Source: Lachnospiraceae bacterium
GTDB taxonomy: Bacteria > Bacillota > Clostridia > Lachnospirales > Lachnospiraceae
DNA length: 64,000 bases
Assembly: GCA_016283775.1 (NCBI GenBank)
Contig: JAEENL010000141.1
Location: forward strand, 1 to 64,000
Reading direction: 5' to 3'
A model generated the notes under the pieces. It was not told where the DNA came from and did not search any database. It saw only the letters and a program-made list of their open reading frames with translations. Below, piece by piece: positions 2,874-34,591 of the stretch. The position numbers and the translations under genes are program-made. Position 1 is the stretch's first letter, and every line of letters begins with the position of its first letter.

Positions 2874-4031
2874 TTATTCGTATGTCAGCAGGGCCGGCCA
2901 TTTATGCGCGGTGCTGCTTCCGTTGAGCTTACTGAGAGCGTCGTCGGTTATCATGAAGTAGGTGTTGGAGTCGTCGTCGACGTTCCAGGTGACATCGAGA
3001 TGATACCAGCTTCCGTTGTATTTTACATAGTTCCAAATGTGGCCCGCATCGCCGTCTTCCTTGAGGGAGTTTGTGATGATGGTATTATCGATGCCGATGA
3101 TGCTAAGGACAAGCCTTGTCGTAACCGCATAGCCCGCGCATACGGCTTTACCTTTAAAGAATACGCCGGTTGCGTCACGTTCTGGAACCCCGAGGCCCGC
3201 AGGGATGGGATGCGGATAACTTACCATTTTGCGGAGCTTGTCGTTTACATAAAGGATCATGCCCTTTTCGTCGTCGGGAGAGGCCTTGATGGCTTCTTCT
3301 GCGATCTTGTGCGCTTCCTGGAGCACCTTCATGCTGTCTTCGTCGATCTCGGGTTCATGGTATCTGTAGTAGGTGTAGGCCTTCCAGGCGTGATTGTAAA
3401 CCGGATAGCAGCCCATGGTATTGTTTTCTTCGGGGCAGATCAGCCAGCTGTCGCAGGTGAAACCTGAGAGCTCGCTGCGGTTAACGTTGTCGTTGAACAC
3501 TTTCAGCCAGTAGTTGTAATCGTGGCCTTTGTAGCGTAGAACGATACCCGGGATGCCGCGCATCAGTCCGTCGTGAACGGCAAGTATTAGGCTTTCCTCG
3601 CTGTCTATATCGTAGTACTGCCTGCCTACAAAGGGCTGGCACTCCTGGGGATTCAGCAGCCCGTAGGTGTTGTTTTTCAGATCGTCGTCAAGCGTGGCAA
3701 CTCCCACATTGCTTCCGAACAGGTTGTCCCAAAAGCTGTTGCCATTGTCGGGCTTAGGAGTTGATGTAGCATCCGGTTTTGATGTGGGTGTCGCATTTGG
3801 CTTGGGAGTGGAAGTCGCAGATGACGCCATCTGTGTTGTCAAGGCGGCCGCCTGTGTGGTGAGACCGGTGATGGTCTGCGCCTCTTCTTCGGTGAGAAAT
3901 CCGGAGTTTCCGAGTTCTTCCGCAATGTTACTGATGCCAGAGAGAACATCGCATCCGCCGAAAAACAAAGTACCAATCGTCAGCGGCAAAAGTAAAGCCG
4001 CTTTATGGAAAAGGATGCGTTTTTTCAACAT
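2874..4031 (-). CDS. Lipoprotein with transglutaminase-like domain
   Basis: Signal peptide with lipobox LFFGGC; Pro/Thr linker; AVCAGYAVTTRLVL and GHIWNYVKYNGSWYHLDVTWNVDD Cys/His/Asp motifs. Confidence 0.75.
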   Translation of the reverse strand: MLKKRILFHKAALLLPLTIGTLFFGGCDVLSGISNIAEELGNSGFLTEEEAQTITGLTTQAAALTTQMASSATSTPKPNATPTSKPDATSTPKPDNGNSFWDNLFGSNVGVATLDDDLKNNTYGLLNPQECQPFVGRQYYDIDSEESLILAVHDGLMRGIPGIVLRYKGHDYNYWLKVFNDNVNRSELSGFTCDSWLICPEENNTMGCYPVYNHAWKAYTYYRYHEPEIDEDSMKVLQEAHKIAEEAIKASPDDEKGMILYVNDKLRKMVSYPHPIPAGLGVPERDATGVFFKGKAVCAGYAVTTRLVLSIIGIDNTIITNSLKEDGDAGHIWNYVKYNGSWYHLDVTWNVDDDSNTYFMITDDALSKLNGSSTAHKWPALLTYE

Positions 4032-28556: not shown

Positions 28557-28585
28557 TTGACTTTTCATGACAGTGATGTTATCAT
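28557..28585 (+). promoter_or_regulatory. Sigma-A promoter of nitrogenase-like operon
   Basis: TTGACT-N17-TATCAT. Confidence 0.65.
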
Positions 28586-28591
28586 ACGGCT

Positions 28592-28725
28592 GTTTCTGAC
28601 ACTGAAATCACAGCACGAGCGGATTAAAGTGAAAGATCGGTCTAAACGCAAGTTCATCGGGAGAGATCCCGGTATATTGTAATGCATTTTCGGCTGTATC
28701 TTTCAGGATACAGCCTTTTTGTTTT
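28592..28725 (+). ncRNA. Structured 5' leader ending in an intrinsic terminator, candidate attenuator or riboswitch of unassigned class
   Basis: CGGGA-GAGA-TCCCG hairpin (28658-28671) and terminator GGCTGTATC-TTTCAG-GATACAGCC-TTTTT (28692-28720); alternative ACAGC (28610-28614) can pair with the terminator 5' arm. Confidence 0.6.
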
Positions 28726-28795: not shown

Positions 28796-29053
28796 ATGAA
28801 AAAAAGAGTGGCAGTGATATCGGTCATCGTGGAAAACGCCGAGTCGGTCGAAGAACTGAACAGGCTTCTTTCCACATGCCGCGAAGAGATCATCGGAAGG
28901 ATGGGTATACCTTATCGTGAAAAGAAGGTCAGCCTCATCAGTGTTGCGATCGATGCTCCCGAGGACACCATCAACGCACTCACGGGAAAGATCGGACGCC
29001 TTCCGGGTGTCAGTGCCAAGACCAACTATTCAAATATCATCACGGAGTGCTGA
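28796..29053 (+). CDS. TM1266-family (iron-only hydrogenase system putative regulator) ACT/CopG-like small protein
   Basis: MKKRVAVISVIVENAESVEELNRLLSTCREEIIGRMGIPYREKKVSLISVAIDAPEDTINALTGKIGRLPGVSAKTNYSNI; SD GGAAAGGAG. Confidence 0.8.
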   Translation: MKKRVAVISVIVENAESVEELNRLLSTCREEIIGRMGIPYREKKVSLISVAIDAPEDTINALTGKIGRLPGVSAKTNYSNIITEC

Positions 29054-29080: not shown

Positions 29081-30055
29081 ATGAAAACATTAAAGAAGAT
29101 CTTATCATCCGCACTTATTGCGGTGCTTACCGTCGCATGCCTTGCCGGCTGCGGAAAGAAGGAAGAATCCGAGGTCAGAGTCGGCGTTCTTAAAGGACCC
29201 ACAGGAATGGGCGCCATTGAGATCATGTCTCTTTCGGATGAGGGAGAGTATGAGAAATATAAGTTCACACTCACTTCCGATACGACCGATATTGTTGCAA
29301 GACTCACAAACGGCGACCTTGACATAGGCGCGCTTCCCACGAATGTAGCTGCAAACCTCTACAACAAGACAAGCGGCGGCGTGCAGATGATAGCCATCAA
29401 CTGCACAGGCGTGCTCTATATCCTTGAAAACGGAAACAGCGTAAATTCCGTTAAGGACCTCAAGGGTAAGACCATTTACACCATCGGACAGGGTTCAAAT
29501 CCCGAATATGTGCTTAATTACATCTTAAGACAGAACGGTCTTGAGCCCGGAACTGACGTGACCATTGAGTACAAGGATGCGAGCGAGGTTTCCGCTCTTA
29601 TGATCACAGGCGGTGCCGAGATCTGCATGCTCCCCGTGCCCGCAGTCACCACGATCCTTGCAAAAAATTCAAGTGTCCGCAAGGCTCTTGATGTGACCAC
29701 AGAGTTCAGAAATGCCGCAAACGACGGAAGCGAGCTTACCATGGGCTGCCTCGTTGCAACAAAGGAATTCATCGAAAAGCATCCCGATGATGTAAAGCTT
29801 TTCCTTGAAAGATACGAGAAGTCCATAAAGAACGTGCTGGGCGACATCGATGCTTCTTCTGAGCTTATCGCAAAATATGAGATCACAGGCTCTGCCGCTA
29901 TCGCAAAAGCAGCTATCCCCGATGCAGGTATCGTATGCGTTACCGGTAAGGACATGAAGCCCATGATCAATGGTTATTTTAAGGTGCTCTATGACGCAAA
30001 TGCTTCTTCTGTAGGCGGTAACATGCCCGGAGACGATTTCTATTATTCAAAGTAA
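29081..30055 (+). CDS. NitT/TauT-type ABC transporter substrate-binding lipoprotein
   Basis: Lipobox CLAGCG; SBP fold motifs (GPTGMGAIEIMSL, NGDLDIGALPTNVAANLYNKT, VKDLKGKTIYTIGQGSNPEYVLNYIL). Confidence 0.85.
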   Translation: MKTLKKILSSALIAVLTVACLAGCGKKEESEVRVGVLKGPTGMGAIEIMSLSDEGEYEKYKFTLTSDTTDIVARLTNGDLDIGALPTNVAANLYNKTSGGVQMIAINCTGVLYILENGNSVNSVKDLKGKTIYTIGQGSNPEYVLNYILRQNGLEPGTDVTIEYKDASEVSALMITGGAEICMLPVPAVTTILAKNSSVRKALDVTTEFRNAANDGSELTMGCLVATKEFIEKHPDDVKLFLERYEKSIKNVLGDIDASSELIAKYEITGSAAIAKAAIPDAGIVCVTGKDMKPMINGYFKVLYDANASSVGGNMPGDDFYYSK

Positions 30056-30059
30056 GACC

Positions 30060-30851
30060 ATGAAGGATGCCGTAAAAAATATAAAAATGATACGGTTTTT
30101 AAAAGCCCTGTTTGCCACCTGTTTCTGGGTGGGAGTGTGGGCGCTTGCCTCACGCGCGGTGGGAAAGGAACTCCTTATCCCATCGCCGCTTGTGGTGCTT
30201 TCGAGGATAGGCGGTCTTGTGGTCACTAAGCCCTTCTGGATAAAAACGGGAGTCTCACTCCTCCGCGTGCTCGGAGGATTTGCCGCAGGACTCATTGGCG
30301 GCACGGTACTTTCCGTTCTTGCATCAGTCTCAGAGATTGCAGAGGCTCTGATCACCCCGTTCATCCGCATCATCCGGTCCACGCCTGTGACATCGTTTAT
30401 CATTCTTGTGATGCTCTGGATAAGCTACACCTTTGTTCCCGTCTTTATTGCAGGGCTTTTGGTCACGCCCATCATGTACATGAACCTGCGAGAGGGCATC
30501 ATCGAGACCGACAAAAATCTGCTGGAGGTGGCCGGGATATTCAGGTTTGGAAAGTGGAAGACCGTAAAAGTGGTGTACATTCCTTCGGTCAAGCCTTACT
30601 TTGTTTCCGCTGCGGTCACGTCCCTCGGACTTGCCTGGAAAGCGGGCATCGCGTCAGAAGTGCTCAGCCTCCCTTCAAATTCCGTGGGCAGAGAGATCTA
30701 CTATTCAAAGCTTTATCTTGAAACTCCTGATCTTTTTGCGTGGACGGTCGTTGTTGTGATCTTCAGCTTTTTCTTTGAAAAGCTTTTTGAGATATTTGTA
30801 AAGAACAGAAAAAAAGAAAAGGAGGCCGTGAAGGAAAATGAAGATAACTGA
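30060..30851 (+). CDS. NitT/TauT/SsuC-type ABC transporter permease
   Basis: Binding-protein-dependent permease EAA-type loop (TDKNLLEVAGIFRFGKWKTVKVVYIPSVKPYFVSAAVTSLGLAWKAGIASEVLSLP). Confidence 0.88.
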   Translation: MKDAVKNIKMIRFLKALFATCFWVGVWALASRAVGKELLIPSPLVVLSRIGGLVVTKPFWIKTGVSLLRVLGGFAAGLIGGTVLSVLASVSEIAEALITPFIRIIRSTPVTSFIILVMLWISYTFVPVFIAGLLVTPIMYMNLREGIIETDKNLLEVAGIFRFGKWKTVKVVYIPSVKPYFVSAAVTSLGLAWKAGIASEVLSLPSNSVGREIYYSKLYLETPDLFAWTVVVVIFSFFFEKLFEIFVKNRKKEKEAVKENEDN

Positions 30852-31404
30852 TCTTACGGTTTCCTATTCGGGACATGTGGTGCTCGACAGGCTTTCTCTG
30901 GAGACCGGGAACGGGATAACTTGCATAATGGGAGAGAGCGGATACGGAAAGACCACGCTGCTTCATACCATTGCGGGGCTTGTGAAAAAGGATTCGGGAA
31001 GCATCGAGGGCGGACCTGAACGGCCTGCCGTGATGTTTCAGGAGGACCGCCTTTTTCCGTGGCTCACGGCGCTTGAAAATATCAAGGTCGTCTGCAATGA
31101 TGAAGAAAAAGCGTTGAGGCTCCTTAAAGAGGTCGAGCTGGAAGGCCATGCGGAAAAATATCCGTCTGAGCTTTCGGGCGGAATGAAACGCAGAGTGGCG
31201 CTTGCAAGAACGCTTTCTTTTGACTCCGACATGATCATCCTCGATGAGCCGTTCAAAGGGCTTGACGAGGCCCTCACAAAAAGGATGGCGGCACTCATAA
31301 AAAGGTGCGAGGTGCCTGTGATACTTGCGACACATGCTGAGTCGGACATAGAACTTCTCGGCGCAAAAAAGATAGATATTCAAAGGTTGGGCAAAGCAGT
31401 ATGA
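30838..31404 (+). CDS. Short ABC transporter ATPase
   Basis: Walker [10 protein letters not shown], signature [15 protein letters not shown], Walker [14 protein letters not shown]; overlaps permease and NifH-like genes. Confidence 0.9.
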
Positions 31405-32162
31405 GAAAGATCGCGATATACGGAAAAGGCGGAATAGGAAAATCAACGACCACGTCAAATGTCTCCATGGCGCTCTCAAAGCTCGGGTACAAGGTCATGC
31501 AGGTGGGATGCGACCCCAAGGCGGATTCCACAGGCGCGCTTGCGGGCGGAAAAAAGATCACCACGGTGCTTGATTCGATACGTGAAAAAGGCGATGACGT
31601 CACGCTTGATGATATAGTGACGGTGGGCGACGGAGGAGTCCTCCTCGTGGAAGCGGGAGGCCCCACACCCGGCCTCGGATGCGCGGGAAGGGGCATTATC
31701 ACGGCGTTTGAAAAGCTGGAAAAGCTCGGCGCGTTTGAAAGATACGCCCCGGACATTGTGATCTATGATGTCCTCGGAGATGTGGTGTGCGGCGGATTTG
31801 CCATGCCGATAAGGGACGGATATGCCAAAAATGTGTTTATCGTGACCAGTGGCGAAAAAATGGCGATGTATGCCGCGGGAAATATCGCGATAGCTGTCGA
31901 CAACTTCAAGAGCCGCGGATATGCAAGGCTTTCAGGTATCATCCTCAACAAGCGGAATGTAGAAGATGAGGAAGAAAAGGTGAGAAAGCTCGCGGACGAC
32001 ATCGATTCGAAAGTGGTCGCGGTCATGGAGAGAAGCCCTCTGGTCCAGGACGCCGAAGCCCTTGGATCCACTGTGGTGTCGGCATTTCCCGATTCCGAAA
32101 TGGCAAAGCACTATACAGAGCTTGCCGAGATCATGCTGAAGGAGTCTGACGATGATCAGTGA
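31401..32162 (+). CDS. NifH/BchL/CfbC-superfamily nitrogenase-like reductase iron protein
   Basis: P-loop [23 protein letters not shown]; both 4Fe-4S ligand motifs (GLGCAGRG and [12 protein letters not shown]). Confidence 0.93.
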
Positions 32163-33429
32163 CAATAACGGAGGCCTCCCGAGATACTGCCATCCCTTTC
32201 ACGGTGGATGGGATGTCGCAAGGATGGCTTTGAACATACCTGAAAGCAAGATATTGTTTGTGTGCCCCGCGAGCTGCGCGAGGATAATCAGCCTGAACGC
32301 CCTGAACTACGGTTACAAGGACCGGATCTACGTGCTCTCGATCACCGAAGAGGATATTGTTGCGGGAGATTATGAGGAAAAAACGGTGCAGGCTGCGCTT
32401 GAAGTGCTTGCGACAGAAGAAGTGAGGCCGCGTGCGCTGATCATCTATGTGAGCTGTATTGACGCAATGCTCGGGAATGATCATGCTTTCCAGACAAAGC
32501 GCATAATGGAGCGCTACCCCGATGTCAACTGTTTTGTCCTCAGAATGTGCCCCATCACGCGTTACAGTTCGGATCTTCCGCTTGTCGCGCTGCAGTATGA
32601 CATGTATTCGGCGCTTCCCGAGGCCACCGTGCCCAAGGAGAAGATAGTTGCGTTCATCGGGAGCAATCTGCCCCTTTCGGACGATAACGAGCTTGTCAGG
32701 ATAATAAAAGAAAACGGATATACGCCGCTTCATATCGGGCAGAGTTCTTCATATGATGATTTTCTTAAGGTAAGAGCGTCTGCGTTGAACATCTGCTATA
32801 TGCCGTTTGCAAAGAAAGCGTGCGACATGCTTAAAGCACGCTACGGAACGGATTATGTCCCCATAGCGCTGAAGCATGACACAGATTATATCGATTCGGC
32901 AATAACGATGCTCTGCGAAAAGCTTTCCGTGCCTTTGCCTGACTTAAAAAAACTTCGTGAAGAGGCATTAAAAGAGCTGTCCGAGGCAGCGGCGATATGC
33001 GATAAAGAAGTGGTCATAGACACCACGGCAACGCTGTTTCCTGACGAACTGAGACGATTGCTTGACACGGCAGGCTTCAGGACGGGAAGGATCTACAAGG
33101 ATTCCGCCGGCGCCATGGAGCCGGATGTGGATTCGGGTCATATCACGATGCCCGGAAAACGTGAGTATGACACGGTCGACCATGACAAGATATCGATAGG
33201 TCTTGTTTCCGGGTGCTTTGAAAAAGCGGAAAAGCAGGTGCCGTTGTTTTATGATAACGGACACTGGGGATACGATGAACTGAGATTTATCGCGCGCACG
33301 ATAAAGGAAAGGCTTTTGGATGTAAGCGGAGCAACGGAGGGAATAGGACCGGAATGCCTACGGCATTCCAATGATAGTCGCTCAAAGCCGCGACGGGCTC
33401 CCCGTTGCGGAGCAACGGAGGAGATATGA
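32152..33429 (+). CDS. Nitrogenase component 1-like subunit (NifD/NifE superfamily, divergent)
   Basis: Cys pattern RYCHPFHG / CPASCAR / [12 protein letters not shown] corresponds in order and context to the three component-1 cluster ligands; [10 protein letters not shown] resembles the component-1 D-V-x-G motif. Confidence 0.85.
33326..33421 (+). repeat. 81-bp in-frame palindromic insertion with 15-bp flanking direct repeat
   Basis: GCGGAGCAACGGAGG at 33326-33340 and 33407-33421 (offset 81 bp); encloses hairpins GGAATGCC-TAC-GGCATTCC, GTCGC-TCAAAGCC-GCGAC and CCGTTGC-GGA-GCAACGG. Confidence 0.8.
33374..33402 (+). repeat. Dispersed hairpin motif copy A
   Basis: ATAGTCGCTCAAAGCCGCGACGGGCTCCC, 27/29 identical to copy B at 38341-38369. 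Confidence 0.85.
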
Positions 33430-34457
33430 AGGGATTATACAGGGTGATGCCCCCGATAGCGCCGGATTACGGCGGTGCCTGTGAGGTGCTTTACGAACTT
33501 GGAGGTCTTGTGCTGATCCATGATGCATCAGGATGTACGGTTAATTATGTTCATTTTGATGAGCCGCGTTTCGGGGAAATGCCCTCAAACGTCTTCTGCT
33601 CGGGGCTTACCGAGATAGAGGCGGTGATGGGGGATGACGAGATAGTGATCGGTAAGGCCGTAAAAGCCGCAGAGATGCTTAAGCCTGCGTTTATCGCGTT
33701 TATCGGAAGTTCTGTTCCTATGGTCGTAGGAACGGATTTTAAGGGAATAGCAAGGCTTTGTGAGGACAGGACCGGTGTGCCCTGTTTCGGTTTTGATACG
33801 AACGGACTCCGCTATTACACTGACGGCGCGTCCAAGGCTATGCTCGCTGTCATAAAGAGATTTTGTGAGAAAAGAGAAGCCGAGACCGAAGAGAAAAACG
33901 ACGCAATTAATCTGCTGGGGCTTATTCCGATGAATTACGGAACCCTTGCGGAAACAGCAAAAGTCAAAGCACTCTTTAAAAACGTCCGTTCTTCTCTCGG
34001 ATTTGACACGGTGCTCTCCGATGTCCGTAAAATGGCCGGCGCATCAAAGAATGTCGTGGTGTCCGCAGCAGGACTCGCATCGGCAGAGTATATGAAAAAG
34101 GAATACGGCATCCCGTATGAGGTCGGAGTGCCCTATACAAGGGAATTTTTTGAAGGTTCTGAGGTTTGTGACGCTTTTGCTCTTGACAAAAAAGACAGGA
34201 TACTTGTGATAGGAGAAGGTGTGGACGCCTCTTCGCTTGCCGGGGCAATCGGAGGAGCCGCTTCGCTGGACATGTTTTCAAAATATCCCGGCGCGACCTA
34301 CAGGACGAGTGACGAGGCTGAGATAGCCGAGATCGGGCAAGGGTTTGATGTGATCATAGCAGATCCCGGCCTTAAGGAGCTGTTCAAGCAAAAGACGTTT
34401 CTTTCCCGCCCAACGGTGTCGGTTTCCGGCGGTATAGATCCCAACAAAAAATTTTAA
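33426..34457 (+). CDS. Nitrogenase component 1-like subunit (second, divergent)
   Basis: GGACEVLYELGGLVLIHDASGCTVNY, SGLTEIEAVMGDDE, AFIGSSVPMVVGTDFKGIA, VPCFGFDTNG; start at ATG 33426 overlapping upstream stop (ATGA). Confidence 0.82.
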   Translation: MKGLYRVMPPIAPDYGGACEVLYELGGLVLIHDASGCTVNYVHFDEPRFGEMPSNVFCSGLTEIEAVMGDDEIVIGKAVKAAEMLKPAFIAFIGSSVPMVVGTDFKGIARLCEDRTGVPCFGFDTNGLRYYTDGASKAMLAVIKRFCEKREAETEEKNDAINLLGLIPMNYGTLAETAKVKALFKNVRSSLGFDTVLSDVRKMAGASKNVVVSAAGLASAEYMKKEYGIPYEVGVPYTREFFEGSEVCDAFALDKKDRILVIGEGVDASSLAGAIGGAASLDMFSKYPGATYRTSDEAEIAEIGQGFDVIIADPGLKELFKQKTFLSRPTVSVSGGIDPNKKF

Positions 34458-34518: not shown

Positions 34519-34591
34519 GCGTCATTAGCTCAGCTGGTAGAGCACCTGACTCTTAATCAGGGTGTCCAGGGTTCGAGCCCCTGATGACGCA
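34519..34591 (+). tRNA. tRNA-Lys(CTT)
   Basis: Acceptor GCGTCAT/ATGACGC, D-arm, anticodon loop CTCTTAA, T-loop GTTCGAGCC; CCA not encoded. Confidence 0.95.

Follow-up and report, generated by a model that had tools for sequence, protein, structure and literature searches.

A widespread, apparently undescribed RNA leader upstream of TM1266, [FeFe]-hydrogenase maturase, and nitrogenase-like operons

INTRODUCTION

In purine and S-box riboswitches and in PyrR attenuators, the 3′ strand of P1 is shared with an antiterminator, and an intrinsic terminator stands before the first gene. ACT-like domains occur on ABC ATPases of the MetN-NIL type. The ACT-like protein TM1266 is annotated merely as a putative regulator, and we know of no tested RNA-binding activity for it.

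The NMT1/xanthine riboswitch is a single rod-like hairpin of ~45 to 50 nt, in which P1, P2a, and P2b are separated first by a conserved junction and then by a second conserved bulge, and it is an OFF switch that sometimes stands before NMT1/TauA-like ABC genes (PMC7373994, PMC8266621). Its J1/J2 nucleotides are G7-A-A-G-C-G12, A16, C33-C34-G35, and A39-U40 (PMC8266621). It occurs in Proteobacteria only and works at the level of translation; terminators are almost absent (PMC7373994, PMC8266621).

Here we analyze a leader of ~135 nt, with an intrinsic terminator at its end, that precedes a nitrogenase-like operon in a 64,000-nt stretch of Lachnospiraceae DNA (the window). The leader belongs to a widespread, apparently undescribed RNA class. 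The NMT1/xanthine riboswitch was considered because of the NMT1-like binding protein in the operon and the layout of the hairpin. The two are alike in rod-like layout, ABC gene context, and (as predicted here) OFF logic, but the candidate was rejected because core and phylogeny differ: the loops of the leader (UGA/RAA-RAA/UGA) depart from the published J1/J2, cmscan returns no match, and the leader class is found in Clostridia with terminators, whereas the NMT1 class is proteobacterial and translational. With purine/S-box riboswitches and PyrR attenuators the leader class shares the P1-3′/antiterminator logic and the intrinsic terminator, but it differs in core sequence, fold, and association with TM1266 and HydEFG, and it has no Rfam match. 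As in MetN-NIL, a TM1266 domain can be fused C-terminally to an ABC ATPase as a regulatory domain (loci L225 and L228); TM1266 is, however, a separate Pfam family and is also found as a stand-alone protein under the RNA leader.

No known riboswitch class had been recognized in the initial annotation, and Rfam 15, scanned at gathering and permissive thresholds, likewise holds no family for the window leader or its counterparts at 24 related loci. No earlier description of such a leader, of such control of maturase genes, or of TM1266 function was found in the open literature; subscription papers and supplements lay outside this search and may hold a buried description. We regard the class as a new one among transcription-terminating leaders, possibly a riboswitch or a protein-binding attenuator.

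RESULTS

Architecture of the leader and operon. The features of the locus are listed in Table 1. A tRNA gene (34519-34591) lies directly 3′ of the nitrogenase-like operon, for which few orthologues were found. The promoter and intrinsic terminator described in the initial annotation are both present at the positions it gave. Promoter and terminator pattern matches are by themselves at chance level across the 1.5-kb region, so that the comparative evidence decides; order, spacing, and conservation make both elements credible. The terminator lies ~110 nt downstream of the promoter, and in G005, a genome of the same genus, an equivalent promoter is found directly 5′ of the motif. The predicted fold of the leader, at -45.5 kcal/mol, is better than those of dinucleotide shuffles (z = -3.57), of which 2 of 200 were equally good.

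TABLE 1 Features of the leader and operon in the window, and of palindromes at related loci
Feature	Position	Strand	Evidence or remark
Promoter TTGACT-17-TATCAT, TG before -10	28557-28585	+	10/12 consensus matches
-35 element TTGACT	28557-28562	+	17-nt spacer to -10
-10 element TATCAT	28580-28585	+	Preceded by TG
Sensor (aptamer-like) hairpin	28588-28642	+	Covariance-model match and class covariation
GGCTGT repeats	28588-28593 and 28692-28697
5′ core strand UGA-CACU-GAA (J1 5′, P2 5′, J2 5′)	28597-28606	+	Conserved columns, alignment A2
ACAGC repeats	28610-28614; second copy in terminator 3′ arm
3′ core strand UAA-AGUG-AAAG (J2 3′, P2 3′, J1 3′)	28625-28635	+	Conserved columns, alignment A2
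Switching strand AAAGAUCGGUC	28632-28642	+	P1/J1 pairing or antiterminator with terminator 5′ arm; permutation tests
GNRA-capped hairpin CGGGA-GAGA-UCCCG	28658-28671	+	In both predicted states (folds)
Intrinsic terminator	28692-28720	+	10 bp, loop of 4 (28692-28715), then TTTTT
Terminator 5′ arm and loop GGCUGUAUCUUU, antiterminator partner	28692-28703	+
ACT-like protein of the TM1266 family (85 aa), encoded by the first gene of the operon	28796-29053	+	PF21699 1.1e-29; TIGR03959 105 bits (cutoff 60.8); PDB 2NZC 1.6e-12
ABC substrate-binding protein (NMT1/SsuA-like)	29081-30055	+
ABC permease	30060-30851	+
ABC ATPase	30838-31404	+
NifH-like reductase	31401-32162	+	Under NifH and CfbC equivalog cutoffs, which leaves the enzyme unassigned
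Nitrogenase component 1-like (NifD-like) subunit	32152-33429	+	Oxidored_nitro
Nitrogenase component 1-like (NifK/NifE-like) subunit	33405-34457	+	Oxidored_nitro
Palindromes at loci lacking the leader	L034 ~3520-3550; L036 ~1885-1915; L038 ~3575-3600; L039 ~375-405; L076 ~2190-2220

A conserved hairpin with near-symmetric internal loops. The class was first recognized in the upstream regions of other TM1266 genes of the family, which share one layout. Its core is a hairpin of ~45 nt, C-UGA-[P2]-RAA-[P3]-UGA-[P2′]-RAAG, followed by a terminator, and its internal loops are one element inverted, both strands reading 5′-UGA-N4-RAA-3′. The window core, C-UGA-CACU-GAA-...-UAA-AGUG-AAA-G, matches the class; P1 is GGCUG/UCU paired with AGA/CGGUC, and inside it lie J1 (UGA/AAA), P2 (CACU:AGUG), J2 (GAA/UAA), and P3 (AUC:GAU). 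Covariance models R1 and R2 match the window leader at 28589-28643 with 25.7 and 25.1 bits, respectively, the modest R1 score being due to the long P3 loop. An exact motif pattern, sought in 397 genomes of the family, was found in the window alone. In G005, the leader before the binding protein retains TTTCTGACAC[C/T]...GTGAAAGATCGGTC as well as a terminator that contains GTATCTTT, whereas the GNRA hairpin is missing. The sequence and position given for that hairpin in the initial annotation were right, but it is not conserved in the class and is missing from the related leaders, those of G005 and G003 included; as a candidate sensor it was rejected as incidental.

The evidence for class and switch is computational throughout. 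A simple parser found the core in ~24 of 71 TM1266 upstream regions, compared with ~12 of 710 shuffles. Alignment A1 (23 sequences), a plain sequence alignment, gave a covariation of 0.53, against 0.22 when shuffled and ≤0.14 with partners slid. A refined alignment of 45 sequences, which was fitted to the structure and so leans in its favor, gave 0.506 (0.195 shuffled; ≤0.128 slid) with 85 two-sided changes.

Gene contexts of the class. Model R1 was run against 299 genomes of the family and R2 against 292 genomes from across the class, with HydE, HydG, and HydF references confirmed by NCBIfam equivalogs. Among the best matches with loci, 50 of 51 lie in TM1266, HydE, HydG, HydF, or TM1266/ABC operons, some of them nitrogenase-like (30/30 family loci and 20/21 class loci), and the remaining one is a coding false positive. 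Weak model matches at L210, L235, and L236 to L238 (the last three judged by position) fall within coding sequence and were dismissed as false. At several loci (L209, L213, and L219) the RNA separates TM1266 from the next hyd gene. A phylum-wide search of 300 genomes returned only two matches with an E value of ≤0.003, and the one that lay outside the class preceded TM1266-HydE; the motif is thus largely confined to the class Clostridia. The center of the RNA class is TM1266 and the [FeFe]-hydrogenase maturases rather than nitrogenase-like operons such as the one that follows the leader in the initial annotation.

In the genus of the window, the leader is kept before the same transporter in G005 (39 bits) and G003 (L227, 35.7 bits). 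The RNA also precedes this transporter in G324 (L226), where TM1266 is present. NifHDK genes were not found in the examined stretches of L227 and L226, which makes the transporter and TM1266 the steadier partners of the RNA. Nitrogenase-like contexts occur in G268 and G576 in addition to the window and G005. The operons of G268 and G576 run RNA-TM1266-FecCD-ATPase:TM1266 fusion-NifH-NifD-NifK-like, and that of G268 also showed a FecB-like protein; the fusions, ABC ATPases with a C-terminal TM1266 domain, lie at L225:1900-2967 (G268) and L228:4266-5321, minus strand (G576), and suggest that TM1266 is a ligand-sensing domain. G268 carries a second copy of the RNA, before HydG (L240, G268:C2:137402-137448), beside the TM1266/nitrogenase-like one. 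Within the genus of the window, G001 (L195) and G003 (L197) also carry, upstream of TM1266-HydE, a divergent leader, CTGCGTGCCGAAGTCAGGTCTGAGGTCAAAGAAG, that receives weak model scores (16.6 bits for the G003 copy).

The leader is absent from the orthologous operons of Solobacterium/Erysipelotrichaceae-like genomes (L034, L036, L038, L039, and L076), where a palindrome resembling GTACGTTGCAATTGCAATGTAC, with T's after it, stands in its place. Some of these palindromes adjoin an apparent Crp/Fnr-type regulator gene, and the palindrome-bearing operons are probably under different control.

Mutually exclusive pairing within the leader. The 3′ strand of the sensor hairpin, RAAGNNNNNN, has its complement in the 5′ arm and loop of its own leader's terminator. 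In 20 leaders, own pairs averaged -12.2 kcal/mol and swapped pairs -9.1 kcal/mol (permutation P = 5e-5), with the pair of the window (-14.9 kcal/mol) ranking 1 of 20; in 52 leaders the values were -9.4 and -7.2 kcal/mol (P = 2e-5; 0 better in 50,000 permutations). A terminator lies within 180 nt in 52 of 56 leaders. Folds of growing prefixes of the window leader show the sensor hairpin as far as nt 115 and the antiterminator at nt 120 to 125, and they end with sensor hairpin plus terminator, the final fold being -45.4 versus -44.1 kcal/mol.

Exclusive pairings of the GGCTGT and ACAGC repeats had been suggested in the initial annotation. The repeats are located as described, and GGCUGU:ACAGC pairing in the antiterminator fold means that they do take part in the window member: the 5′ GGCUG pairs with CGGUC in P1 and with ACAGC at 28610-28614 in the alternative fold. 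They are not, however, the conserved switch, which is instead the pairing of AAAGAUCGGUC with the terminator 5′ arm GGCUGUAUCUUU. Metabolite- or protein-controlled attenuation, the function proposed there, is supported by the Rfam result, the conserved leader, and the statistically backed exclusive structures. Taken jointly, the RNA class, its covariation-based structure, the exclusive pairing, and the gene associations are held with high confidence.

DISCUSSION

A model of the switch. Transcription would start just 3′ of 28585. In the OFF state, AAAGAUCGGUC would close the sensor hairpin and leave the terminator free to form; in the ON state, it would pair with GGCUGUAUCUUU as an antiterminator. 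Because the RAAG strand is shared by hairpin and antiterminator, stabilization of the hairpin should terminate transcription; termination in vivo and the OFF direction are what we infer from the predicted structures. An effector bound to the near-symmetric core (5′-UGA-N4-RAA-3′ on both strands) would thus promote termination and provide negative feedback. That effector could be TM1266, as an ACT-like multimer perhaps carrying a small molecule or metal. The full chain, in which leaders of this class attenuate transcription of TM1266 and hydE/hydG/hydF operons, and here of the TM1266-ABC-nitrogenase-like operon, with TM1266 as effector, stands close to an even chance.

Nature of the effector. 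In our view, TM1266 is the most likely effector. It is present in all checked genomes with a genuine RNA copy save G453, including those with nonadjacent copies. By a hand tally it occurs in 27 of 28 family genomes with an RNA match of E ≤ 0.01 and in 82 of 172 others (P = 2.4e-7), and in the single exception, G131, the RNA match is a coding false positive. TM1266 is, however, the commonest regulated gene, so that this co-occurrence is partly built in and not decisive. The solved TM1266 structure (2NZC) has four chains in the entry, inverted identical loops suit a multimeric protein, and the ATPase fusions are as expected for a sensor domain. That TM1266 is a hitherto unrecognized RNA-binding regulator that senses a signal related to iron enzymes and clamps the hairpin, thereby ending transcription, at multiple operons, including its own gene, hydE, hydG, hydF, and the ABC/nitrogenase-like operons, is a tentative proposal to which we give somewhat less than even credence.

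Nearly as likely is a new riboswitch class, with the same attenuation switch, in which a small molecule or metal is the direct ligand of the hairpin and TM1266 is merely regulated. Possible ligands are iron, a precursor that contains iron, or a metabolite related to sulfur or cysteine that H-cluster assembly shares with the ABC/nitrogenase-like operons. The compact core with near-invariant internal-loop nucleotides is typical of aptamers, biosynthesis and transport genes are controlled together, and TM1266 was not detected in G453 (97% complete), which has a good leader before HydG. The tracking of the RNA by TM1266 among genomes, even where the copies are not adjacent, and the near two-fold symmetry that fits a multimeric protein speak instead for TM1266 as effector. 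An intermediate made by HydG is disfavored as ligand: HydG was not found in the window genome (G000), G005, or G324, all of which have RNA and TM1266, although for G000 and G005 this absence rests on incomplete metagenome-assembled genomes (93% and 80% complete). TM1266 may serve nonhydrogenase systems. Control by another trans factor (an RNA-binding protein, a small RNA, or transcription kinetics alone) or by a leader peptide is improbable; terminators alone could set expression, but no conserved leader open reading frame was noticed, what is conserved is structure, and no further factor has the same association. Far less probable still is a chance structure made of an ordinary terminator of the upstream PIG-L gene and unrelated sequence. 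Such a structure would agree with the shuffle-level counts of promoter and terminator patterns in the region, but it is contradicted by the covariation and permutation tests, by a core kept before the orthologous transporter in two genomes and in dozens of covarying leaders, and by a terminator placed at that distance from the promoter that pairs specifically with its own leader.

Implications. Maturation of [FeFe]-hydrogenase is central to how Clostridia of the gut and rumen metabolize H2. A leader common to TM1266, hydE, hydG, hydF, and nitrogenase-like operons defines a directly testable regulon for these iron enzymes, and the outcome would be either a new class of riboswitch or a new regulator that binds RNA. 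That the nitrogenase-like enzyme and its transporter are tied to the same signal is a clue to their substrate.
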